From: a virus
Length of the DNA stretch: 24,016 bases
Virus record (IMG/VR): IMGVR_UViG_3300042463_001124
Span: 1 to 24,016 of that record
Direction: 5' to 3' (one strand)
This document shows positions 746 to 22,650 of this stretch, one piece after another. The notes beneath the pieces are model-generated. The model ran no database searches, was not told where the DNA came from, and saw only the letters and a program-made list of their open reading frames with translations. Both the position numbers and the translations under genes were made by a program. The stretch's first letter is position 1; each line of letters starts with the position of its first letter.

Positions 746-1675
746 TTAGTTTAATTCTAGAGTAAAACTATCATCTTTACTTTTATTATTAGTATTTGGA
801 GTTAAGATATTAGTACTCCCAAAGTCACTTTTTTTACCACCGTCAACACCTAAATCTGTGCCTTGTTTTTCTGTTGTTTTTGAGTCATTCGGTTTATTTG
901 TTGACCCCTTTGTCCCGGTAATTTCAATGTCACCCAAATCCATACTCAATTCTTTTTCTTTTGGTTTTGGTGTTTGTTTTTTTATTTGTTGTTGTTGTGT
1001 TGTTTTTGTTCTAACTGACAACCATTTATCCGTTGACCAATTATAATAACCACGTTCTCCAATAATATTATTTGTATTACAAGCGTCATAGTAAATTCTT
1101 TTACCACCATCACTACCCATACCTTGAGGTGTCGGGCCCCATTCACCACATTGGAAATACAAATAAAATAAATCTTTTGATCCTTGTGAGATTAGGAATG
1201 GTGCGGTTTTATTTAAAGAACTTAAACTTTTTTTACTATCTGAAATACAGTTTGTTATTTCTTTATTTTGGAAATACATATTTTCATTTGACCTTGAATA
1301 ACTTGATAATGATGCGTAGCACATTGAGTATATTCTACCACCTAACGTTGTTTTGTCGGATCCTAAATCTTGGTAATATTTTACGGTGGCGTTTGGGTCA
1401 TTTGTATTTAAAAAAACTTTTGTTAGTGCATCACCAAATGTTTGTTTAATTTCACCATAAAAAGTTAATGGTGAGCCTTTAATATCAACAGTTTTTGTTA
1501 ACGGTTGACAACCATTAAGTTCTTTTTTACCAGGAACATCAGGACAGTTATCATTTTTATCCAAAACACCATCACGATCACGATCTTGTTCTAAAATAAT
1601 TTTTTTATCTTCATAAAGAACTTTCTTTACAATTTTAATTATATCATTTTCCGTTAATGTAATTATTCTACTCAT
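746..1675 (-). CDS. hypothetical protein with TEN signal and thrombospondin type-3 calcium repeat, 309 aa
   Basis: The N-terminus MSRIITLTENDIIKIVKKVL is a clear copy of the recurrent signal, followed by LYED and ILEQ as possible (L/I)-x-E cleavage sites. Residues 31-56 (DRDRDGVLDKNDNCPDVPGK and the next few) form a thrombospondin type-3 repeat, a Ca2+-binding motif known from OmpA-type and secreted Bacteroidota proteins. Residues 60-220 are an unrecognised domain with several Cys. The tail (about 225-309) is low-complexity Thr/Lys/Gly-rich and ends in DSFTLELN, as in the next gene. The start overlaps the upstream stop by 4 bases (ATGA). Function unknown; calcium binding follows from the repeat family. 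Confidence 0.8.
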   Translation of the reverse strand: MSRIITLTENDIIKIVKKVLYEDKKIILEQDRDRDGVLDKNDNCPDVPGKKELNGCQPLTKTVDIKGSPLTFYGEIKQTFGDALTKVFLNTNDPNATVKYYQDLGSDKTTLGGRIYSMCYASLSSYSRSNENMYFQNKEITNCISDSKKSLSSLNKTAPFLISQGSKDLFYLYFQCGEWGPTPQGMGSDGGKRIYYDACNTNNIIGERGYYNWSTDKWLSVRTKTTQQQQIKKQTPKPKEKELSMDLGDIEITGTKGSTNKPNDSKTTEKQGTDLGVDGGKKSDFGSTNILTPNTNNKSKDDSFTLELN

Positions 1676-3742: not shown

Positions 3743-3764
3743 ATAAATATAGCGAAATATTTAT
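3743..3764. promoter_or_regulatory. divergent pair of TATTTAT boxes
   Basis: A 33-base gap separates two divergent genes. It holds one box for the minus-strand gene (3743-3749, 6 bases from ATG 3736) and one for the plus-strand gene (3758-3764, 5 bases from ATG 3770). There is no room for conventional leaders or Shine-Dalgarno sites. Confidence 0.55.
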
Positions 3765-3769
3765 TTGTT

Positions 3770-4387
3770 ATGAAGATAATAATATCAGAATCTCAATATA
3801 AAAAAATTTTATTAGAAGAAAGACAAAATAGTCTATTAGGTAAACTAAAAGGTCTAAAATCTTTTTTTAAAAAGGTTAGTGAAGAAACAAAAAATCAAGT
3901 TGGTTTGGATTTAAACTTTCTTACAACCTGGGGTGTAACTATTGCAGGTTTTGTAATGCCAGTTTCTGATTTTATTGAGGGTAAATTTCCAGAAATGACC
4001 TCTACTGATTTATCATTAATTGCTACTGGTATAATTTTAACTTACTACCATTCAAATAAAGAAATGTTGGGTAAGGTTTTAAATAAGATAAAAGAAAAAG
4101 AACTTGTTTTTGAATTTGATAGTGCTTTAAAGGTTGCAGATAAATTAAAAAATGTTTTTTTGTCTTTCGTTGAAAGTTTAGCAATACCAACTTCTAAAAT
4201 ATCAAATATGTTAGCTTACACATTTTTAATTCCGATATTACCTGAATTATATGAAGCGGCGCAATCTGGAAGTTCTATTGATGTAAAAGAAATGGTTGTG
4301 CGTAGTCTTGCTTTTTTAGCTGTTAGTTTTGGTGGTAATTTTGTAAAAAGATTGATGATGGAAATAGTAAAAAGGTTTAAATCTTAA
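3770..4387 (+). CDS. polytopic membrane protein with TES signal, 205 aa
   Basis: It starts MKIIISESQYKKILLEERQN, a clear copy of the recurrent signal with ISE and LLE triplets. Hydrophobic segments lie at about residues 50-66, 80-94, 146-160 and 176-193, separated by charged helices, and the tail is basic (KRLMMEIVKRFKS). The size and membrane layout would suit a holin, a spanin-like helper or an injected channel protein, but no family was recognised. It is a one-gene plus-strand unit with a box 5 bases upstream and a 4-base convergent overlap with the next minus-strand gene. Having the same signal as soluble enzymes here argues against the signal being an ordinary export peptide. Confidence 0.8.
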   Translation: MKIIISESQYKKILLEERQNSLLGKLKGLKSFFKKVSEETKNQVGLDLNFLTTWGVTIAGFVMPVSDFIEGKFPEMTSTDLSLIATGIILTYYHSNKEMLGKVLNKIKEKELVFEFDSALKVADKLKNVFLSFVESLAIPTSKISNMLAYTFLIPILPELYEAAQSGSSIDVKEMVVRSLAFLAVSFGGNFVKRLMMEIVKRFKS

Positions 4388-5446: not shown

Positions 5447-5869
5447 ATGGAACTATTAAATTCACATCCAATTAAAAAATCAGACCTAGGTTTCCACGGT
5501 AATTTATTCGGTGGTAAATTACTTGCCTGGATTGATGCTTCAGCTGCCGGATATGCAATGCAGTTATGCGATACACCAAGAATGGTTACGGTGTCTATTG
5601 ATAAGTGTAACTTTGAGAAACCAGCAAGAGAGAGTCAATTACTTAAAATTTATGGGCAACCAGCATATGTTGGTCACACGTCAGTTACATTGTATATGGA
5701 GGCTAGAGCGCATAATGTATATACTGGAAAACAAGTTATAGTTTTAAGAACGAATATAAAATTTGTTCATATCGATGAAGAAGGTAACCCAATTCCAATT
5801 GGGGAAAAAGGAAAAAATAGAATCACAAAATTAATAGAAAAAAATAACGAGGATGAAAAAAATATTTGA
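5447..5869 (+). CDS. acyl-CoA thioesterase, hotdog fold (YciA-like)
   Basis: The 140-residue length and the segment GFHGNLFGGKLLAWIDASAA (residues 15-34) match the central helix of hotdog acyl-CoA hydrolases, with Asp30 in the catalytic position. A second conserved stretch is VGHTSVTLYMEARAHN (about 78-93). The family hydrolyses acyl-CoA to free acid and CoA in the cytoplasm. Its last 17 bases overlap the guaC start, so the two are co-transcribed. No TES signal and no TATTTAT box precede it, and no convincing TAnnTTTG is seen. This is an unusual cargo for a phage; it may alter host lipid or CoA pools. Family assignment is firm, substrate unknown. Confidence 0.9.
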   Translation: MELLNSHPIKKSDLGFHGNLFGGKLLAWIDASAAGYAMQLCDTPRMVTVSIDKCNFEKPARESQLLKIYGQPAYVGHTSVTLYMEARAHNVYTGKQVIVLRTNIKFVHIDEEGNPIPIGEKGKNRITKLIEKNNEDEKNI

Positions 5870-6818
5870 TTTTGATAATATAACATTACTACCAAACTTT
5901 AGTCGTGTTGAGAGTAGAAGTGATTGTGATACAACTTGTGTATTTGGTGGTCATAGGTTTAAACTACCTATTGTTCCTGCAAATATGGAAAGTATTATAG
6001 ATATTAATTTAGCAAAAAAATTAGCAAAAGATGAATATTTTTATATATTACACAGATTTAATATTGATGAGGTTTCTTTTGTGAGAGATATGAAAGAACA
6101 TAATTTAATTTCTTCAATATCTGTTGGTGTAAATGACGATTCGTATAAACTAATTGATGAACTTGTATTAGAAGATTTAATACCACACTTTATCACTGTA
6201 GATATTGCACACGGTCATTCTATTAAAATGAAAAAAATGGTTAAATACATCAAAAATAAAATGCCAGATGTATTTTTAATTGGTGGGAATGTCTGTACAC
6301 CAGAAGCCGTCACTGATTTGGAATCTTGGGGTTGTGACGCTGTTAAATGTGGTATTGGTGGGGGATCCGCTTGCACTACATATCACTCAACTGGTTTTGG
6401 TAATCGTGGTTGGCAGGCGTCAATGATTAAGAAGTGTGTTAAGGTAGCAAAAAAACCAATTATTGCTGACGGCTCAATAAAAGAACATTGTGATATTACA
6501 AAAAGTCTTGTTTTAGGAGCGTCTATGGTTATGGTTGGTGGTATGTTATCTGGATACATAGATTCACCAGGGGACAAACTTAAAAACAAAGTAGACGGTC
6601 ATTTCTACAAAGAATTTTGGGGTAGTGCATCATCTTCACAGTCTGGTAAGACAAATAGAATTGAGGGTATCAGAAAATTAGTACCATATAAAGACGTTTC
6701 TATTTTTGATAAATTAAATGATATTGAGGAATCACTACAAAGTGCAATTTCTTATGCTGGAGGAAATCCAAATACGATTGAGTGTTTAGGTAATGTAAAA
6801 TATGTTACACGTATTTAA
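5853..6818 (+). CDS. guaC: GMP reductase
   Basis: GMP reductase converts GMP to IMP with NADPH, releasing ammonia. The 321 residues form one IMPDH/GMPR TIM barrel with no CBS insert, which fits GMP reductase (about 325-345) rather than IMP dehydrogenase (about 480-500). Key segments are LPIVPANMES (38-47), VDIAHGHS (116-123), the phosphate and catalytic loop GIGGGSACTTYHSTGFG (167-183) with Cys174 as nucleophile, IIADGSIK (203-210), and a C-terminal flap with FWGSASSSQSGK and EGIRKLVPYK as in the Gram-positive GuaC type. Translationally coupled to the thioesterase; its end overlaps the convergent LDT-like gene by 4 bases. In a phage it would rebalance purine pools for DNA synthesis. Confidence 0.93.
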   Translation: MKKIFDFDNITLLPNFSRVESRSDCDTTCVFGGHRFKLPIVPANMESIIDINLAKKLAKDEYFYILHRFNIDEVSFVRDMKEHNLISSISVGVNDDSYKLIDELVLEDLIPHFITVDIAHGHSIKMKKMVKYIKNKMPDVFLIGGNVCTPEAVTDLESWGCDAVKCGIGGGSACTTYHSTGFGNRGWQASMIKKCVKVAKKPIIADGSIKEHCDITKSLVLGASMVMVGGMLSGYIDSPGDKLKNKVDGHFYKEFWGSASSSQSGKTNRIEGIRKLVPYKDVSIFDKLNDIEESLQSAISYAGGNPNTIECLGNVKYVTRI

Positions 6819-7690
6819 GTAATATTTGAATTATCGATGTTTGATGAATTTTTAACTAAATAATTTTCATCACCTAAACTAAAAATTCTATATTTGGATA
6901 TATCAATTCCTAAATTATTTAATTTATCCAAAAAACTTGTTGGTAAATTTATGCAACCACTAGATAAATCTAAATTCGTATCTTTAGTTAGTGTTGTACC
7001 ATTTACACATTTAAACGCTTCATTTCTTTCTTTAGTATCTTTAACTCCGTGTATTGCTTGTACTAATTCTTTACCTGAGTCATCAAAATAAGACCAAAGA
7101 TTTTTTTTGGGGTCTTCTTTTGTTCCTGCACCAGTATATTGTGTATAAGTTTGTCCTGGTCCAGTGTTAAAAACACCAGTTGGTGCAAATCTACCCCCAA
7201 CTCTAGATATTGGGTCACCAAGACCAGACTTTACTCTTTCATCATAACTCATTTTAGACCAAGCATCAAATTCTTTGGTTGGTTTATCTTTTCCCATAAT
7301 AGCTAAAGTCCCAGTTAAATATGTCCCACCATTATCAAAAAAATAAATAGTATTTTTAACCTGATCTATTATTAACCAAGGTTTATCTTGGTAATTTGGT
7401 CTTATAGTGTTTAAAGCAACTTGACAGGCAGACCTAAATTCAATATTTTCATTTTGATTTTTATTTTTTACATTCTGTAATATTTCTTTTGCTTTAGTTG
7501 TTAAAACTTCAGAAACTTTATTAAAGTCATTACCATATTTAGACATTATATCATTATAATCACTTAAACTGTTTTTATAAACATCACTAAAAGTACAACC
7601 AGTTGTATTGACCACCTCAACTAACAAACCATATAAATTTCTTATATGTTTTTTTTCATTTTCTGTTATTATAAATCTTTTTCTGTGCAT
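6815..7690 (-). CDS. L,D-transpeptidase-like (YkuD) cell-wall protein with TEN signal, 291 aa
   Basis: The N-terminus MHRKRFIITENEKKHIRNLY carries the recurrent signal, with LVE at 23-25 as a possible cleavage site. The YkuD-like domain spans about residues 103-275: KPWLIIDQVKNTIYFFDNGG (strands), GRFAPTGVF, AIHGV with His214, and LDLSSGCINLP with Cys246. The family consensus is S/T-H-G-C-x-N/R; here the His is Ser (S-S-G-C-I-N). L,D-transpeptidases cut and rejoin peptidoglycan stems in the periplasm. No export signal is seen, so delivery within the virion or release at lysis is more likely. The start overlaps the upstream stop (TAATG). Activity as transpeptidase, carboxypeptidase or endopeptidase is not resolved. 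Confidence 0.82.
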   Translation of the reverse strand: MHRKRFIITENEKKHIRNLYGLLVEVVNTTGCTFSDVYKNSLSDYNDIMSKYGNDFNKVSEVLTTKAKEILQNVKNKNQNENIEFRSACQVALNTIRPNYQDKPWLIIDQVKNTIYFFDNGGTYLTGTLAIMGKDKPTKEFDAWSKMSYDERVKSGLGDPISRVGGRFAPTGVFNTGPGQTYTQYTGAGTKEDPKKNLWSYFDDSGKELVQAIHGVKDTKERNEAFKCVNGTTLTKDTNLDLSSGCINLPTSFLDKLNNLGIDISKYRIFSLGDENYLVKNSSNIDNSNIT

Positions 7691-9616: not shown

Positions 9617-10168
9617 ATGAAAAAAATAAAATTAACAGAAAGTGAGCTTGTTGCTTTAATAGAAAAGGTAATTAAAGAAAATGGCGATGTTCAAATGGGT
9701 GGTGAACAAAAAGAAAATAAGAAAAAAGAACCACCAAAACCTAGATGTATGGAAGACAATATGATTCCACTTGATGAAATGGTTGGTCAAGCTGATGAAT
9801 TTGTAAAATATTCACCCGGAGTTTCAAAAAGAAGAATGGGTGTTAATTCAATGGTTGATACTTTAGGTATTCTAAATAATATAAGACTTTTTAAGGATGT
9901 TAAAGATGGTGGTGCACATTTAGCTTATGATATGATGCACAATCTTAATAGATTCAGAAATAAAAACTATCACGACGAAACAACTGGTGAATGCCATAAA
10001 GCGATGGATAAGATTGTTGAGTTATATAAAGAAAATGAACACGGAACAGAATTAGTTAAAGATATTGAAAGGGTTTTAGCGCTACAAACAAAGGATGACG
10101 AATATACACCGTCACCAAGAGCTAAAGAATATCTTAAACAATGTATTAATTTAGTTAAAGGACAATAA
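9617..10168 (+). CDS. helical hypothetical protein with TES signal, 183 aa
   Basis: It begins MKKIKLTESELVALIEKVIK, one of the clearest copies of the recurrent signal, with LTE, LIE and IKE triplets. A charged Lys/Glu/Pro linker follows (residues 25-43). The rest (about 44-183) reads as a helical bundle with SPGVSKRRMGVNSMVDTLGI and NYHDETTGECHKAMDKIVEL segments. I do not recognise the family. First gene of a plus-strand set, ended by a strong terminator 40 bases downstream. Confidence 0.8.
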   Translation: MKKIKLTESELVALIEKVIKENGDVQMGGEQKENKKKEPPKPRCMEDNMIPLDEMVGQADEFVKYSPGVSKRRMGVNSMVDTLGILNNIRLFKDVKDGGAHLAYDMMHNLNRFRNKNYHDETTGECHKAMDKIVELYKENEHGTELVKDIERVLALQTKDDEYTPSPRAKEYLKQCINLVKGQ

Positions 10169-11309: not shown

Positions 11310-11876
11310 TTACCTAATTAACGTTAAATGTCCGTGATTTGTGACTTTATCATCATTTCCAAAGACATTAAAGGTTAGTTTCCAGATATAAACACCTTCT
11401 GTACACATTTTATTATCAAAAGTACCATCCCAACGCCCATTTGGGTCATTAGATTCCCATACTATGTTACCCCAACGGTTAAAAATAAGGAACTCAAACC
11501 CATTTATATCATATCCATTAACCATAATTGGTCCATATAGTTGGTTATTCTCGTTTCCATCCGGTGTAAAACAGTTTGGCACCCAGTAAATAACCCCAGG
11601 ACAGTCATTAACAACAACTTGTATTGATTCTTCAACATAACAAATGACATTTTCACGTCTTAATACTATATTATATGTTCCTGTTTGTGTGAATGTGTAT
11701 GTTAAATCTTCCATAGCATACACAATTCCGTTAACTGTCCACGTATTTACACCAGCACCACCGTAATTTGAGGTGTATGTGACTGTTTTACTCTCCCCAT
11801 CACACAATTCAAACATATGTTGACTATATGTGACTAAGGAAAGACAGAAAAAATATACAAATAGTATTAATTTCAT
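11310..11876 (-). CDS. secreted protein with PKD-like domain and T9SS type B sorting (gliding-associated C-terminal) domain, 188 aa
   Basis: A Sec signal peptide (MKLILFVYFFCLSLVTYSQ) precedes a beta domain of PKD type (residues 20-91, with ELCDGESKTVTYTSNYGG and the Q-T-G-T-Y pattern). Residues 98-188 form a gliding-motility-associated C-terminal domain: VPNCFTPDGNENNQLYGP, FEFLIFNRWGNIVWESNDP, RWDGTFDNK, GVYIWKLTF and the end GHLTLIR. In Bacteroidota this directs proteins through the outer membrane by the type IX system to the cell surface or medium. Third gene of a three-gene unit, sharing one base with the previous stop. Finding it in a phage-like region is unexpected; it may be a host-surface decoration or exclusion factor, or an adhesin part. 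Confidence 0.85.
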   Translation of the reverse strand: MKLILFVYFFCLSLVTYSQHMFELCDGESKTVTYTSNYGGAGVNTWTVNGIVYAMEDLTYTFTQTGTYNIVLRRENVICYVEESIQVVVNDCPGVIYWVPNCFTPDGNENNQLYGPIMVNGYDINGFEFLIFNRWGNIVWESNDPNGRWDGTFDNKMCTEGVYIWKLTFNVFGNDDKVTNHGHLTLIR

Positions 11877-15091: not shown

Positions 15092-15517
15092 ATGAGTAAA
15101 GTTAGTCTAAACAGTACTGTGACTGTAAATTACACAGGTAGATTGGAAGATGGTTCTATTTTTGATTCTTCATTAAATGAAGGTCGTGAACCACTTAAAG
15201 CAACGTTAGGTCAAGGACAATTAATACCTGGTTTTGAATCTGGATTAATTGATATGACTATTGGCGATAAAAAAACGGTAGAAATTCCACATACTGAAGC
15301 ATATGGTAACTACAATGACGAATTGATTACTGAAATCCCTAAAGATCGTGTTCCAGAAGGAGTCGAAGAAGGTGCTATGTTACAAACATTTGGCCCTAAT
15401 GGTCCAGTAATTGTAAAAGTCGTTGAGGTAAAAGAAAGTGTTGTTGTTTTGGATGCAAACCATCCGTTGGCTGGGCAAAAGTTAATTTTTGATTTGGAAC
15501 TTTTGGAAGTTGAGTAA
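15092..15517 (+). CDS. slyD: FKBP-type peptidyl-prolyl isomerase, SlyD-like
   Basis: The split FKBP domain is clear: VTVNYTGRLEDGSIFDSS (10-27), GQLIPGFESGLIDMTIGD (42-59) and LDANHPLAGQKLIFDLELLE (120-139). Between about 72 and 120 lies the insert-in-flap (IF) chaperone domain typical of SlyD. The 141 residues match the family without the His-rich nickel-binding tail of E. coli SlyD. The enzyme speeds Xaa-Pro isomerisation and aids folding in the cytoplasm. It has no TES signal. It stands alone on the plus strand, ended by a strong terminator. A phage chaperone of this type could assist virion protein folding; acquisition from a host is likely. Confidence 0.92.
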   Translation: MSKVSLNSTVTVNYTGRLEDGSIFDSSLNEGREPLKATLGQGQLIPGFESGLIDMTIGDKKTVEIPHTEAYGNYNDELITEIPKDRVPEGVEEGAMLQTFGPNGPVIVKVVEVKESVVVLDANHPLAGQKLIFDLELLEVE

Positions 15518-17325: not shown

Positions 17326-17865
17326 TTAATTTAAATCGGTTTTTGGTCTTGGTCTTCCTTTTTCAGATCTTACTTGAAATTTTATATCCGCGACTTTTAA
17401 CTCGGCAGCGTAATCTGTCATAGCTCTGTGTACACTCATTGTTAAATCAGTTAATTTATCAATGATATTTTCTTTTGATATTAGTTCTTCACCCATACCA
17501 AGCATCATTCTAATTTTTTCTTGATAGGACTCTAGTTTTCTGTGTAAAATTTTACCTGTTTTAATTACTTCCCTTTCAGTAAAATCTTTAAATACTATGT
17601 CCATAGCCGTATTAATTTCTGAAATTAATTCGATTACTAAATACAAATTTTCTTCTAAATCAACATATTCAATATTTCCAGATTTTAACATATGAACAAC
17701 ACCTCTAAGAACTTGTGATAAATCTGTAAGTGAGTCAACTAAAACTCTCATAGAAGCACCACCGTGTTGTGCCATAACATCAAAGTCGTCATATCCGGCC
17801 GCTTCTTCTGTTATCCTTTTCATTAACATTTGGAATTGTTCTTCGGTTACTAATATTTTTGCCAT
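17326..17865 (-). CDS. all-helical hypothetical protein with TEE signal, 179 aa
   Basis: The signal MAKILVTEEQFQMLMKRITE is followed by AAGYDDFDVMAQHGGASMRV. The remainder is predicted helical with heptad-like hydrophobics (LVDSLTDLSQVLRGVVHMLK, LYLVIELISEINTAMDIVF, KLESYQEKIRMMLGMGEEL, IDKLTDLTMSVHRAMTDYAA) and ends in a basic tail (SEKGRPRPKTDLN). ITE-E at residues 18-21 is a candidate cleavage site. It has the look of a coiled-coil core or tape-like internal protein. A box lies 17 bases upstream. Family not recognised. Confidence 0.8.
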   Translation of the reverse strand: MAKILVTEEQFQMLMKRITEEAAGYDDFDVMAQHGGASMRVLVDSLTDLSQVLRGVVHMLKSGNIEYVDLEENLYLVIELISEINTAMDIVFKDFTEREVIKTGKILHRKLESYQEKIRMMLGMGEELISKENIIDKLTDLTMSVHRAMTDYAAELKVADIKFQVRSEKGRPRPKTDLN

Positions 17866-17889: not shown

Positions 17890-18450
17890 TTACTCACTTT
17901 CCAATTCTTCAAAGACTATTTCACAAAAATCAATTATACCTTTGATATAATCATTTTCCATCCAATCTATTATCGCCTGGAAACTTTCAAATTCTGTTGG
18001 TAATTTATATCGTTCATAATAATCACCAGTTAGTTCTTCATCACCTGAATCACCATCGTCATCTGTAAAATTGTAATATTCAATATCAATTGGTAAATAA
18101 CAGTTACCATCCCAGTAAGGTGTTGCGTAACCATCAAGACTATTTGTTGTTTTTTTATCTGTAACTTTGAAATACACAGCACTTAAAAAATCGTCCATAT
18201 CTAACCAAATGTGATATTTTTCTGATATAAATTTTTTTCTTAAAACAGTATCATAAATAAGAACAGAACAAATTTGAAATAAATCATCACAACTAAATTC
18301 TGGTAATCTTGAATTTTTATAGATTATGTCAAGTTGAGGTATTGATAGTTTATATCTATCAATTGTTTCGGCAAAACCAATTTCATTAAATGACTGTGTT
18401 AATTGTTTTTTTAACCTTGAACCTTGTGATTCTGTAATTAGATATTTCAT
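17890..18450 (-). CDS. acidic hypothetical protein with TES signal, 186 aa
   Basis: The signal MKYLITESQGSRLKKQLTQS opens the protein. The rest is acidic and aromatic: FSCDDLFQICSVLIYDTVLR, KYHIWLDMDDFLSAVYFKVT, DGYATPYWDGNCYLPIDIEY, a DDDGDSGDEE loop near residue 132, and a helical end. The pattern of strands in the centre with helices at the end resembles the neighbouring small acidic genes, but I could not align it with confidence. The ATG follows the upstream TAA with no gap. Confidence 0.75.
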   Translation of the reverse strand: MKYLITESQGSRLKKQLTQSFNEIGFAETIDRYKLSIPQLDIIYKNSRLPEFSCDDLFQICSVLIYDTVLRKKFISEKYHIWLDMDDFLSAVYFKVTDKKTTNSLDGYATPYWDGNCYLPIDIEYYNFTDDDGDSGDEELTGDYYERYKLPTEFESFQAIIDWMENDYIKGIIDFCEIVFEELESE

Positions 18451-18777
18451 TTAATCGTCATCTTCATTTTCTTCATCACTACAATCGGCATCATCGTAGT
18501 ATTTTTTTATTGTTTTTAAAAATACTTTTTGAACTGTATCTCTTATAATTTCATTTTCTTCATCACCATCAGTTGCTGGATTATCTTTTGTATATACATA
18601 AAAAATAATATCTGTAAGACCATCAAGAACAACTTCTGTATATTTACCTTTTCCAAAATAACTACCAAATCTATTTCTATAATAACAAGGTTGCTGGTCT
18701 TCCATTTCCCCAGCCAATAATTGCTTCAAATAATCTGGCGTTATTCTTCTTAGTAAAAACTCTAAACCTTTATCCAT
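18451..18777 (-). CDS. small acidic LRR(I)T-family protein, 108 aa
   Basis: The start MDKGLEFLLRRITPDYLKQL shares the (F/L)L.RR(I/V/L)T core of the tandem paralogues at 21486-22599, but lacks the TES signal in front. The C-terminal helix IIRDTVQKVFLKTIKKYYDD aligns with the SLDKV..MYWELKPFLKKRY helix of those genes. It ends in a very acidic tail, DDADCSDEENEDDD. It overlaps the lysozyme stop by one base (TAATG). I read it as a distant family member; function unknown. Confidence 0.72.
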   Translation of the reverse strand: MDKGLEFLLRRITPDYLKQLLAGEMEDQQPCYYRNRFGSYFGKGKYTEVVLDGLTDIIFYVYTKDNPATDGDEENEIIRDTVQKVFLKTIKKYYDDADCSDEENEDDD

Positions 18778-19529
18778 TATATGTTAAGTTTTTGACCAAT
18801 AGTAATTTTATCAGATTTTAAACCATTCTTAGACTTTATTGCAGTTACTGTTGTATCGTATTTGGTTGCAATTCCCGACAATGTATCTCCAGATTTTACA
18901 ATATGTTGTTTTGTTTTAGGTTGTGTAGCTTTTGCAAGTTCTTTACTAACATAATCTATCGTTCCCATCAATGTGATATCTGGTTTAGATTGTGTTTTTT
19001 TGTCTGGTGTTTTTGACTGACTAACTTTGTCTGCTAAAAATAAATTATAAAATTTTTGGTTTCTGTCTGTTAATTCTTTTCCACCAGCATATCTTTTATA
19101 TTCTTTTTTTGCTGTTTCCCAATCCTTAGTAACAACAGCTTTAACAAAATTTGGAAATTTACTTAACCCAGGATTATAATTAAAATCAACCAACATTTTT
19201 AACTGTTTATCATTTAATGTATAACCAGGAAATTTTTTTGCAACATAAGAATTAACAACAGACTCATCAGTTTTTAAATCACTTTTTAAATAACTAATAG
19301 CTTTTGTTTCGGGAATCTTCATTCCGAGTTTAATATTTGGGTCCCTATTTTCCGAATGACCATAACCAATTGTTACAACACCAACATCATCTTTATATGC
19401 TTTATGTAGTCCAGTTTTTGAATCAATAACTTTCCCTTCAACATCCTTAATGTAGTTCAAAAATTCTTCGTCATCAGAAATTGATTCCGTTATCAATTTC
19501 AATTGTGTTTCTGTTATTATTATTTTCAT
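18777..19529 (-). CDS. T4-type lysozyme (GH24) with C-terminal LysM and TET signal, 250 aa
   Basis: I start at ATG 19529 (MKIIITETQLKLITESISDD), two bases after the upstream stop; a TTG at 19535 is less likely. The GH24 domain runs about 22-165: Glu31 (T4 E11), AYKDDVGVVTIGYGH with Asp47 (T4 D20) and Thr53 (T4 T26), then LVDFNYNPGLSKFPNFVKAV. A linker of Lys/Thr/Gln leads to a LysM domain at about 208-250 (HIVKSGDTLSGIATKYDTTV, ending ITIGQKLNI). It hydrolyses the MurNAc-GlcNAc bond of peptidoglycan. It has no export signal; the TET start instead groups it with virion-type proteins, so it may be packaged and used at entry, or act as endolysin. Confidence 0.93.
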   Translation of the reverse strand: MKIIITETQLKLITESISDDEEFLNYIKDVEGKVIDSKTGLHKAYKDDVGVVTIGYGHSENRDPNIKLGMKIPETKAISYLKSDLKTDESVVNSYVAKKFPGYTLNDKQLKMLVDFNYNPGLSKFPNFVKAVVTKDWETAKKEYKRYAGGKELTDRNQKFYNLFLADKVSQSKTPDKKTQSKPDITLMGTIDYVSKELAKATQPKTKQHIVKSGDTLSGIATKYDTTVTAIKSKNGLKSDKITIGQKLNI

Positions 19530-19531
19530 AA

Positions 19532-20293
19532 TCAAAATTTTATTTTAGTTAAATCAACAACTGGAATAAAAGTATCGGTTTTTAATTCAACTGGCTCTTT
19601 TTCATTTTGCCATCTTTTATAAAAATCTATATCTCTAATACTATCTTCGTCATTTTCAAAATCCTCATTAGAATAATCTTCAAATTTAGAGTATCTCATA
19701 TTTTCTGGTAAACGACTATAAAAATCATTCATATGGTTTTCTAAATCTTGATTAAATTCAATACCAAACTTATTTCTATATTCATCATCAACATATCTAA
19801 ATAAATACGATCCTTCAATTTCCAGATGAGGTAAAAGAAAATCAAATTCTTCGTAATCTTTTGGTGGTGTTACATTATAAAAATCATAAAACTTATTTAG
19901 ATTAAATTTAAAACTAACATAACCGAAAGTTCCATATTTTTTTTCATAGTTAATATCAATATCAATAACAAATGGATATTCGTCTTTAATGTGTCTTAGT
20001 AGGAGTTTTTTTCCGGCATCAACCCTTTTAATTTCGGATTCAAAAATTACTGGATTTTTTTTTTCACTTATTGATTCTTTAATATCAATAACACCGATGA
20101 TTTCTTTTTTTTTTGGAAGAGATTTTTTATAGTCTTGCCATTCTTGTTCGTCTTTAAATTCTAACACATTAGACTGATAAACTGGATCTTCACCTTTACC
20201 TGGTGAAAACTTAATTGCAACACCCTTTTTGATTGGTCTTTCTTCAGTTAATACCCTTGTTAATTGCTCTTCTGTTAGAATATATTTTTTCAT
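19532..20293 (-). CDS. acidic hypothetical protein with TEE signal, 253 aa
   Basis: The signal MKKYILTEEQLTRVLTEERP has LTE twice. Residues 25-70 (AIKFSPGKGEDPVYQSNVLE, FKDEQEWQDYKKSLPKKKEI) contain a small strand-helix unit. Residues 85-200 are rich in aromatic and acidic residues (FVIDIDINYEKKYGTFGYVS, DYEEFDFLLPHLEIEGSYLF). The C-terminus ends PVVDLTKIKF. First gene before the lysozyme, with a box 5 bases upstream of its ATG. Not recognised. Confidence 0.78.
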   Translation of the reverse strand: MKKYILTEEQLTRVLTEERPIKKGVAIKFSPGKGEDPVYQSNVLEFKDEQEWQDYKKSLPKKKEIIGVIDIKESISEKKNPVIFESEIKRVDAGKKLLLRHIKDEYPFVIDIDINYEKKYGTFGYVSFKFNLNKFYDFYNVTPPKDYEEFDFLLPHLEIEGSYLFRYVDDEYRNKFGIEFNQDLENHMNDFYSRLPENMRYSKFEDYSNEDFENDEDSIRDIDFYKRWQNEKEPVELKTDTFIPVVDLTKIKF

Positions 20294-21063: not shown

Positions 21064-21465
21064 TTAAAATTTAAATATTTTCATATGAAACTTAGGACCC
21101 ATTTTTAATTTTAATCCAAGACCAGACTCTTCCATAATTTTTGAAAGTTTATCAAAATAATTATCAAGTTTTTCAACACCATTTTCATAGTCGTGTCCCC
21201 AATTACGTGGGTTTCTAAAAAATTCCATAAGTTCTAACGATTTACCGTCTTCACTTAACATAAAATCAAGACCACCAAAAGGAAACACCATACTATCCAT
21301 ATCTGGATGACTAAAACTTTTATTTTCACGTCTTAATTTATACCAGATTTTTTCCCATTCTTCTGGTGATAATTCTTTTGGTTGCTCATCTTCCATTTCT
21401 TCATTAATTATTTTTTTAATGATAGTTATTAATTCATTTTCGGAAAGTCTTATAGTTTTTTTCAT
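21064..21465 (-). CDS. hypothetical protein with SEN signal, 133 aa
   Basis: The signal MKKTIRLSENELITIIKKII is followed by NEEMEDEQ, so INE-E is a candidate cleavage site. The mature part has PEEWEKIWYKLRRENKSFSH, FPFGGLDFMLSEDGKSLELM (a beta hairpin) and a C-terminal strand GLKLKMGPKFHMKIFKF. It looks like a compact alpha/beta domain of about 100 residues. A box lies 6 bases upstream. Not recognised. Confidence 0.78.
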   Translation of the reverse strand: MKKTIRLSENELITIIKKIINEEMEDEQPKELSPEEWEKIWYKLRRENKSFSHPDMDSMVFPFGGLDFMLSEDGKSLELMEFFRNPRNWGHDYENGVEKLDNYFDKLSKIMEESGLGLKLKMGPKFHMKIFKF

Positions 21466-21485: not shown

Positions 21486-21860
21486 TTATCGTTGTTTTTT
21501 TCTTTCCCAGGCTTGACGAAGTTTTATTTCGTATCTTTTTTTAAGAAAGGGTTTTAATTCCCAATACATTGATGCAACCTTATCAAGACTATTATCATCA
21601 TATATCAAACCATAATCCGGATCATCAACTGTATCAATCTCATCATCTTTTCTCTCCACCACAAATTCGTGAAGCAAATCACCAAGAACATCTTCACAAA
21701 AAGTATCAAAGTCTCCTCTTGTTGGCATTCCGTATATGTGGTCGGTTATTTCTTTATCTATCCATTCCAAATCAAATAGTGTGACCCTTCTTTTTAAAAA
21801 TGGTGGAAGTTCTGAAAACAAACCTTTAAGATATTCGGATTCTTTTAATAGTCTTCTCAT
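21486..21860 (-). CDS. tandem paralogue A, KES signal, 124 aa
   Basis: It begins MRRLLKESEYLKGLFSELPP, then FLKRRVTLFDLEWIDKEI, DFDTFCEDVLGDLLHEFVVE, DPDYGLIYDDNSLDKVASMY and WELKPFLKKRYEIKLRQAWE. These blocks are shared in order with the next two genes upstream. The start overlaps the upstream stop by 4 bases. The signal has drifted (KES for TES). The conserved HEFV and D-x-E/D-x-G-x-x-Y blocks look structural rather than catalytic. Function unknown; duplication is evident from the alignment. Confidence 0.82.
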   Translation of the reverse strand: MRRLLKESEYLKGLFSELPPFLKRRVTLFDLEWIDKEITDHIYGMPTRGDFDTFCEDVLGDLLHEFVVERKDDEIDTVDDPDYGLIYDDNSLDKVASMYWELKPFLKKRYEIKLRQAWERKKQR

Positions 21861-22225
21861 TTTCTACTTTTTTCCCATTCTTGACGAACCATTGGTTCAT
21901 ATATCTTTTTAAGATAAGGTCCTAATTCCCAATACAAACTAAGTACATTATCTAAACTTTCTTCGTTATAATATGGACCAGATTCCGGATCAATTTCAGT
22001 TTCAACTTCACTCTGTTTTCTTGAATGAACAAACTCGTTAATCAATTCGTGTATAAGGTCATTAAAATAGATTTTAAATTCATTTCTTCTTGAGGCATAA
22101 CGAAGATAGTTTTTAACCTCATTATCCATCCAATCCAAATCTTCCTGGGTAATTCTTCTTTTTAAAACTAATGGTAAATTACCAACCAGTCTTTCATATT
22201 GTGATTCAGTTATTATTATTTTCAT
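21857..22225 (-). CDS. tandem paralogue B, TES signal, 122 aa
   Basis: I start at ATG 22225 (MKIIITESQYERLVGNLPLV), which overlaps the upstream stop by 4 bases; an upstream in-frame start would lie inside the previous gene. The blocks are LKRRITQEDLDWMDNEVK, FNDLIHELINEFVHSRKQ, IDPESGPYYNEESLDNVLSL and YWELGPYLKKIYEPMVRQEW. The middle copy retains the intact TES signal. Nothing resembles a catalytic motif. It forms one family with A and C. Confidence 0.82.
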   Translation of the reverse strand: MKIIITESQYERLVGNLPLVLKRRITQEDLDWMDNEVKNYLRYASRRNEFKIYFNDLIHELINEFVHSRKQSEVETEIDPESGPYYNEESLDNVLSLYWELGPYLKKIYEPMVRQEWEKSRK

Positions 22226-22599
22226 CTCTTTTTTAAATGGTGTTCCCAAATTTCATATAGTTCATCATAAAATATATCTTTTAGAACAGGAATTAATGGC
22301 CAGTATATATCCATAACATCTGATTGACTTTTTTCGTCATATACATCACCCCATTCCTCGTCTGAAATTGTTTTAATCTCATAATTTCTTTTTTGCATCA
22401 CAAATTCATGCACCGTATCACCAAGAACATAATCACAAAATTCGTCAAAGTTTTTTATTTGTTTTGGACTATGAATTAAGTTAATACGAAATTCCTTTTC
22501 AATCCACTCAAAATCATCAGATGTTAATCTTCTTTGTAATATTGGTGAAACATTACCCAGTAGTTTATGATATTGTGATTCGGTTATGATTATTTTCAT
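22222..22599 (-). CDS. tandem paralogue C, TES signal, 125 aa
   Basis: I start at ATG 22599 (MKIIITESQYHKLLGNVSPI) rather than at 22617, because the TATTTAT box ends just 5 bases upstream. The blocks are LQRRLTSDDFEWIEKEFR, FDEFCDYVLGDTVHEFVMQK, DEEWGDVYDEKSQSDVMDIY and WPLIPVLKDIFYDELYEIWE. First gene after a terminator, so it begins a new transcription unit. Its first 29 coding bases are nearly identical to those of paralogue B. Confidence 0.82.
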   Translation of the reverse strand: MKIIITESQYHKLLGNVSPILQRRLTSDDFEWIEKEFRINLIHSPKQIKNFDEFCDYVLGDTVHEFVMQKRNYEIKTISDEEWGDVYDEKSQSDVMDIYWPLIPVLKDIFYDELYEIWEHHLKKR

Positions 22600-22604
22600 A
22601 TAAG

Positions 22605-22611
22605 ATAAATA
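22605..22611 (-). promoter_or_regulatory. TATTTAT box upstream of paralogue C
   Basis: GAATATTTATCTTATATG; 5 bases from ATG 22599 and 13 bases downstream of a terminator. A box placed directly after a terminator supports a promoter role. Confidence 0.55.
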
Positions 22612-22623
22612 TTCCATAAAACA

Positions 22624-22650
22624 AAAAACCCCAACTTTAAATTGGGGTTT
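22624..22650 (-). terminator. intrinsic terminator (minus strand)
   Basis: On the minus strand an 8-bp stem, AACCCCAA / TTGGGGTT, is followed by TTTTTTG. It ends the unit of the right edge just after the stop at 22654 and before the box of paralogue C. Confidence 0.9.

Follow-up and report, generated by a model that had tools for sequence, protein, structure and literature searches.

Genes at the locus

The DNA analysed here (the window) is an IMG/VR virus record of 24 kb with a GC content of 30%. It belongs to a giant phage, relatives of which lie on contigs of up to ~300 kb, and since one of its proteins carries a CHU_C type IX secretion domain, the host of these uncultured giant phages is probably a member of the Bacteroidota. 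The window also encodes a 4HBT thioesterase, an IMP dehydrogenase/GMP reductase-like protein and an FKBP-type isomerase (5447-6818 and 15092-15517). Among annotated phage records, none came close to the window at the DNA level. Gene calls were made with a simple ORF script, and the genes that start with a tag, a short N-terminal peptide shared between proteins, are listed in Table 1.

Table 1. Tagged genes and associated features of the window.
Feature	Position	Strand	Length (aa)	Tag or start	Remarks
Paralogue C	22222..22599	-	125	MKIIITESQYHKLLG	tag codons 22570-22599
Paralogue B	21857..22225	-	122	MKIIITESQYERLVG	tag codons 22196-22225
Paralogue A	21486..21860	-	124	MRRLLKESEYLKGL	diverged tag; start overlaps the stop of B
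Lysozyme (PF00959) with LysM	18777..19529	-	250	MKIIITETQLKLITE	class 1
"Membrane protein" of the initial annotation	3770..4387	+	205	MKIIISESQYKKILLEE	class 1
Tagged protein	19532..20293	-	253	MKKYILTEEQLTRVLTEE	
Tagged protein	17890..18450	-	186	MKYLITESQGSRLKK	
Gene with tag-like start	17326..17865	-	179	MAKILVTEEQFQMLMKRITEE	
Class 2 tag gene	746..1675	-		MSRIITLTENDIIKIVKKVLYED	class 2
Class 2 tag gene	9617..10168	+	183	MKKIKLTESELVALIEKVIKEN	class 2
Class 2 tag gene	21064..21465	-	133	MKKTIRLSENELITIIKKIINEE	class 2
Gene with YkuD-like (L,D-transpeptidase) body	6815..7690	-		MHRKRFIITENEKKHIRNLYG	class 4
CHU_C type IX secretion domain protein	11310-11876				
Upstream box (example)	3750-3769	+		ATATTTAT	
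Upstream box (example)	22600-22624	-		ATATTTAT	

Paralogues B and C, the lysozyme and the 3770-4387 protein, for which no Pfam match was obtained, all begin with MKII(I)…, and the initial annotation described the bodies of the lysozyme and of the 3770-4387 protein as unrelated. The bodies of B and C are not unrelated: A, B and C are paralogues in tandem, each overlapping the next by an ATGA, with the start of B lying on the stop of C; B and C are therefore related along their whole length, with 30% amino-acid identity between their bodies. Neither the B/C families nor the family of the 3770-4387 protein had a match in annotated phage records, and the tag sequences were not found in the literature searched.

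Tag classes, cleavage motif and upstream box

The tag genes studied were collected by scanning viral DNA with a fully degenerate tag pattern, neutral to synonymous choice, which gave 89 stretches; fetched relatives and whole contigs were added to these, and the related contigs in this sample are mutually non-independent. At least four tag classes were distinguished (MKIIITESQ…, MKKIIRLTESDLTRIVRRVIKE, MNLQENIRRILREE and MKKFIITEEEKSRIL…), the sizes of which hinge on the regular expressions used. The consensus peptide of class 1 is MKIIITESQ…[LI]xE, and 192 distinct class 1 tag genes fell by BLAST into 66 body families, so that a short N-terminal peptide is common to proteins with unrelated bodies; remote paralogy between some of these bodies is possible because non-homology was judged by BLAST.

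The motif [LI]xE occurs within residues 10-26 in 65%, 87% and 87% of classes 1-3, compared with 32-41% in shuffled sequences, and its preferred residue is 15/16, 22 and 13 in classes 1, 2 and 3, respectively. Class 4 is weaker, with [LI]xE in 53% of tags and no fixed position, and the tags of B and C have no clear [LI]xE, as is the case for roughly one class 1 gene in three. A Peptidase_S77 of the T4 gp21 type is encoded on 10 of 12 related contigs and on none of 14 controls; it is seen in the relatives, the window itself being a 24-kb fragment.

A strand-specific box, ATATTTAT, lies upstream of many genes, its first base mostly at a distance of 12-14 or 20-25 bases from the ATG. It precedes 40% of class 1, 53% of class 2 and 60% of class 4 genes against 16% of untagged genes, with frequencies of ~2% in shuffles and 3% on the reverse complement, and it resembles a phage promoter whose leader would be very short.

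Similarity of the 29-base starts

The initial annotation drew attention to the first 29 coding bases, which differ at 2 positions between B and C, at 3 between the lysozyme and B and at 4 between the 3770-4387 gene and B; these counts proved exact. They were compared with a null model in which the peptides were kept fixed and codons were drawn from the window's own usage. For B and C, 4.4 ± 1.7 differences were expected (P 0.13), which makes their likeness unremarkable; the expectations for the other two pairs were 5.9 (P 0.04) and 5.5 (P 0.30), respectively, and the results were unchanged when the usage of ordinary gene starts was taken instead. Summed over the six pairs of the four genes, 23 differences were seen against 34 ± 4.7 expected (P ~0.015), the genes having been chosen for their resemblance. 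Between B and C, synonymous codons are identical at 7 of 9 sites in the tag and at 19 of 30 in the body; between C and a relative in genome G009, with which nine tag residues are common, codons match at 3 of 9 tag sites and at 24 of 44 body sites. The DNA upstream of B is unrelated to that upstream of C. B and C thus need no explanation at the DNA level.

Synonymous variation of the tag across genomes

It had been proposed that the DNA of the signal is more conserved than the gene bodies, possibly through selection on the nucleotide sequence itself, for instance for translation initiation. Neither proposal was borne out: in the 192 class 1 genes synonymous sites vary freely, and codon variation in related phages is as high in the tag as in the bodies. 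Isoleucine in class 1 tags is encoded by ATA, ATT and ATC in proportions of 0.57, 0.29 and 0.14, and threonine by ACA, ACT and ACC in proportions of 0.58, 0.23 and 0.13. The ATA share is raised over that of bodies (0.34), but ordinary, untagged gene starts are likewise enriched (0.51); codon choice in the tag is approximately that of ordinary gene starts and not a fixed sequence.

Orthologous pairs were compared by taking the synonymous-codon identity of codons 2-12 minus that of the amino-acid-matched body, in bins of 45-60, 60-75 and 75-97% protein identity. Tag genes gave +0.09 ± 0.04, +0.01 ± 0.04 and -0.03 ± 0.03, and ordinary genes +0.05, +0.05 and +0.07, so that these pairs reveal no synonymous conservation of the tag beyond that of ordinary gene starts. 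Amino-acid identity in the same pairs is markedly higher in the tag than in the body in each bin (0.74 vs 0.51, 0.86 vs 0.65 and 0.94 vs 0.82). It is the peptide of the tag, not its DNA, that is conserved, and nucleotide selection on the tag was rejected on the orthologue test and the comparison with ordinary starts.

Movement of tag DNA in related phages

Within a genome, codon agreement between tag genes separated by more than 10 kb is at the level of chance (0.577 vs 0.595 expected). It is greater between neighbours that have unrelated bodies and lie within less than 100 bp of each other (0.692 vs 0.593 expected, z 3.6; contig bootstrap 0.61-0.76), and a regional effect present in untagged genes accounts for only ~0.03 of this excess. 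In class 1 (stretches L004-L110 and whole contigs) the codon chosen for Ile3 is strongly linked to that chosen for Ile4, with odds of 18 overall and of 7.4 (P 0.001) across body families with one gene per family; the linkage is not significant in other gene starts (odds 1.5), and none was found between Ile3 and Ile5 of class 1 tags. Reuse of tRNA was considered as the cause of the Ile3-Ile4 linkage and rejected, class 2 tags showing the opposite sign. Judging by the codon sharing of neighbours and by this linkage, the tag DNA retains some measure of shared descent.

Individual cases are clearer. The twin starts 5418/5832 of L070 agree at 44 of the 46 bases that follow from the ATG onward and diverge thereafter, and three pairs whose bodies have no BLAST match are alike across the start: G008 84368/84790 (91% over 141 bp), G015 37429/38740 (95% over 124 bp) and G005 144682/280211 (90% over 98 bp). 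Matching upstream DNA in front of different bodies was seen in 113 distinct cases; in 25 of them both genes carry a tag, where 5.5 would be expected, an excess that is inflated because tagged genes cluster. In the 17 upstream-matched cases of the same class, synonymous identity of the tags is 0.752, and matched pairs drawn at random give 0.654 (P 0.009). Upstream DNA is common to only 2 of 568 class 1 pairs within a contig, and copying of promoter and tag together was accordingly discarded as a frequent event in class 1 and taken to be rare.

Some candidates for exchange were not retained. How far the DNA match reaches into the coding region was set aside as swap evidence (P 0.10 against a peptide-matched null), and only the synonymous identity of the upstream-matched cases was relied on; the twin starts of L065/L078, in which nearly all first residues are common, look like a frameshift and were excluded; and L005 2151/3585, which by eye are diverged paralogues, were not counted as unrelated bodies.

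Further loci were noted beside these. At the locus of the window gene 746-1675, also present in G018, G016, G009 and G015, the end of the upstream gene is conserved and the body of the following gene varies, the replaced bodies coming with or without the same tag. The repeat of ~124 bp, 95% identical, upstream of 37429 and 38740 (G015:C1, L125) spans a gene end and the next start, so that C-terminal as well as N-terminal ends may be repeated elements there. In G008 (L114), at 74813/76354 and 77383/77843, the secretory-signal-like start MKTIFFIFTLFIVSFVNSQ and the start MPLKVDKLIASEIVLNGTEL are each common at the DNA level, and the bodies behind them are unrelated.

The lysozyme offers an example of body replacement. 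L094/L095 carry a relative of the window lysozyme at the site where related phages have a gene of 409-415 aa; homology to those phages extends over two upstream genes through coding base +47 and then ends. Compared with the window lysozyme, the gene agrees at 71-84% in bins from the tag onward, and its upstream region does not match. The best breakpoint lies inside the tag, at +23 (12-28), only 2.7 log units better than one at the ATG. The lysozyme of L093 has a third, unrelated upstream region. By these contexts, the lysozyme body has passed from one locus to another, and the junction falls at the tag or within it.

The suggestion that recombination or gene conversion moves the signal between genes thus stands for some genes of related phages, in which the tag has occasionally acted as a DNA module or recombination joint, uncommon as this is, and is unnecessary for B and C. 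Breakpoints at the end of the tag are clear in a few relatives, statistically modest overall and absent for B and C.

Interpretation

The reading that we favour, with a probability of roughly 0.7, is that the near-identical 29 bases are a by-product of a conserved tag peptide, that this tag probably targets proteins to the capsid, and that it serves occasionally as a swap point. A peptide of the MKIIITESQ…[LI]xE type, encoded in a genome of 30% GC with strongly biased codons, would yield similar DNA, and in B and C tandem paralogy would add to the likeness; selection would act on the peptide rather than on the DNA. Much as the capsid-targeting sequence of T4 does, the tag would draw unrelated cargo, the lysozyme among others, into the prohead core, where a gp21-type prohead protease would cut it off after [LI]xE. 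Computation shows the conserved peptide, the motif at a fixed position, the protease of the relatives and the absence of any additional synonymous constraint; packaging and cleavage of the tagged proteins are inferred. Now and then the tag start is also a point at which recombination swaps bodies, as seen in relatives and not in B and C, because many genes of a genome share the same short start, often behind a ATATTTAT box.

The tag could instead be some other N-terminal sorting or binding element, for example one that docks to a different part of the virion or to a host component. This we hold to be rather unlikely: the third of class 1 tags, including those of B and C, in which [LI]xE is missing from residues 10-26, the floating motif of class 4 and the two of 12 related contigs with no S77 match would be in keeping with it, but the constant placement of [LI]xE in classes 1-3 weighs against it, as does the S77 protease on the remaining contigs, and lysozyme and YkuD-like cargo suits virion proteins. 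A still less probable account has gene conversion or recombination spreading the tag among B, C and the lysozyme of this genome as a DNA module. It would explain why adjacent tag genes have more codons in common than expected, and it has precedents in the clean twin starts of L070 and G008, in the lysozyme body swapped at the tag in L094 and in the ipII/ipIII pattern of T4; against it, the likeness of B and C stays within what codon usage allows and is no better than paralogy predicts, their upstream DNA is unrelated, and pairs with common upstream DNA are very rare in class 1. That nucleotide-level selection on the start, such as for translation initiation, keeps the DNA alike is very improbable and largely refuted, the ATA enrichment that might suggest it being matched in untagged starts and synonymous conservation of tag starts not exceeding that of ordinary ones.

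Beyond the favoured reading of a capsid-targeting peptide, it is conceivable, if on balance doubtful, that promoter box and tag form a regular recombination joint, at which cargo bodies would be exchanged behind fixed tags and the set of head-carried proteins refitted. The few body swaps seen indicate how cargo sets could evolve. The claim of DNA conservation turns out to be ordinary, and what matters is the tag itself: if the capsid-targeting reading is true, at least four tag classes, found on many unrelated proteins in each genome, would mark, by sequence alone, the unknown proteins that uncultured giant phages carry in their heads.

Comparison with known systems

The closest parallel is found in the internal proteins of T4. 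At the N-terminus these carry a capsid-targeting sequence, some ten residues long, which is removed by cleavage (PMC9026906), and apart from it they are highly diverse (PMC3012670). As in ipI, ipII and ipIII, a short N-terminal tag sits here on diverse bodies, and the T4 tag is cut by the gp21 prohead protease. The present phages differ from T4 in that their tags fall into several classes and occur on some 20 to 40 genes in each genome; these tags, known here from genes alone, have ~13-25 residues and other sequences, and the T4 tag peptides look different. In the neighbouring T4 genes ipII and ipIII, 30 of 30 tag bases are identical and 10 of the next thirty, which suggests that bodies are swapped at tags in a model phage too. 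The giant phages SPN3US and phiKZ likewise have N-terminal propeptides on head proteins, processed by an S80-type prohead protease, and the SPN3US paralogues gp53 and gp54 have identical N-terminal residues (PMC5694885); protease family and cleavage motif are different there, whereas the relatives of the window match the T4 family S77. Lastly, the PeSLs of T4-type phages, mobile regulatory cassettes of repeated promoter-containing DNA, are reported to mediate gene shuffling among T4-like phages (cited in PMC4503421); a PeSL consists of a promoter and a stem-loop, while in the phages described here the common DNA extends from the upstream region into the coding tag.
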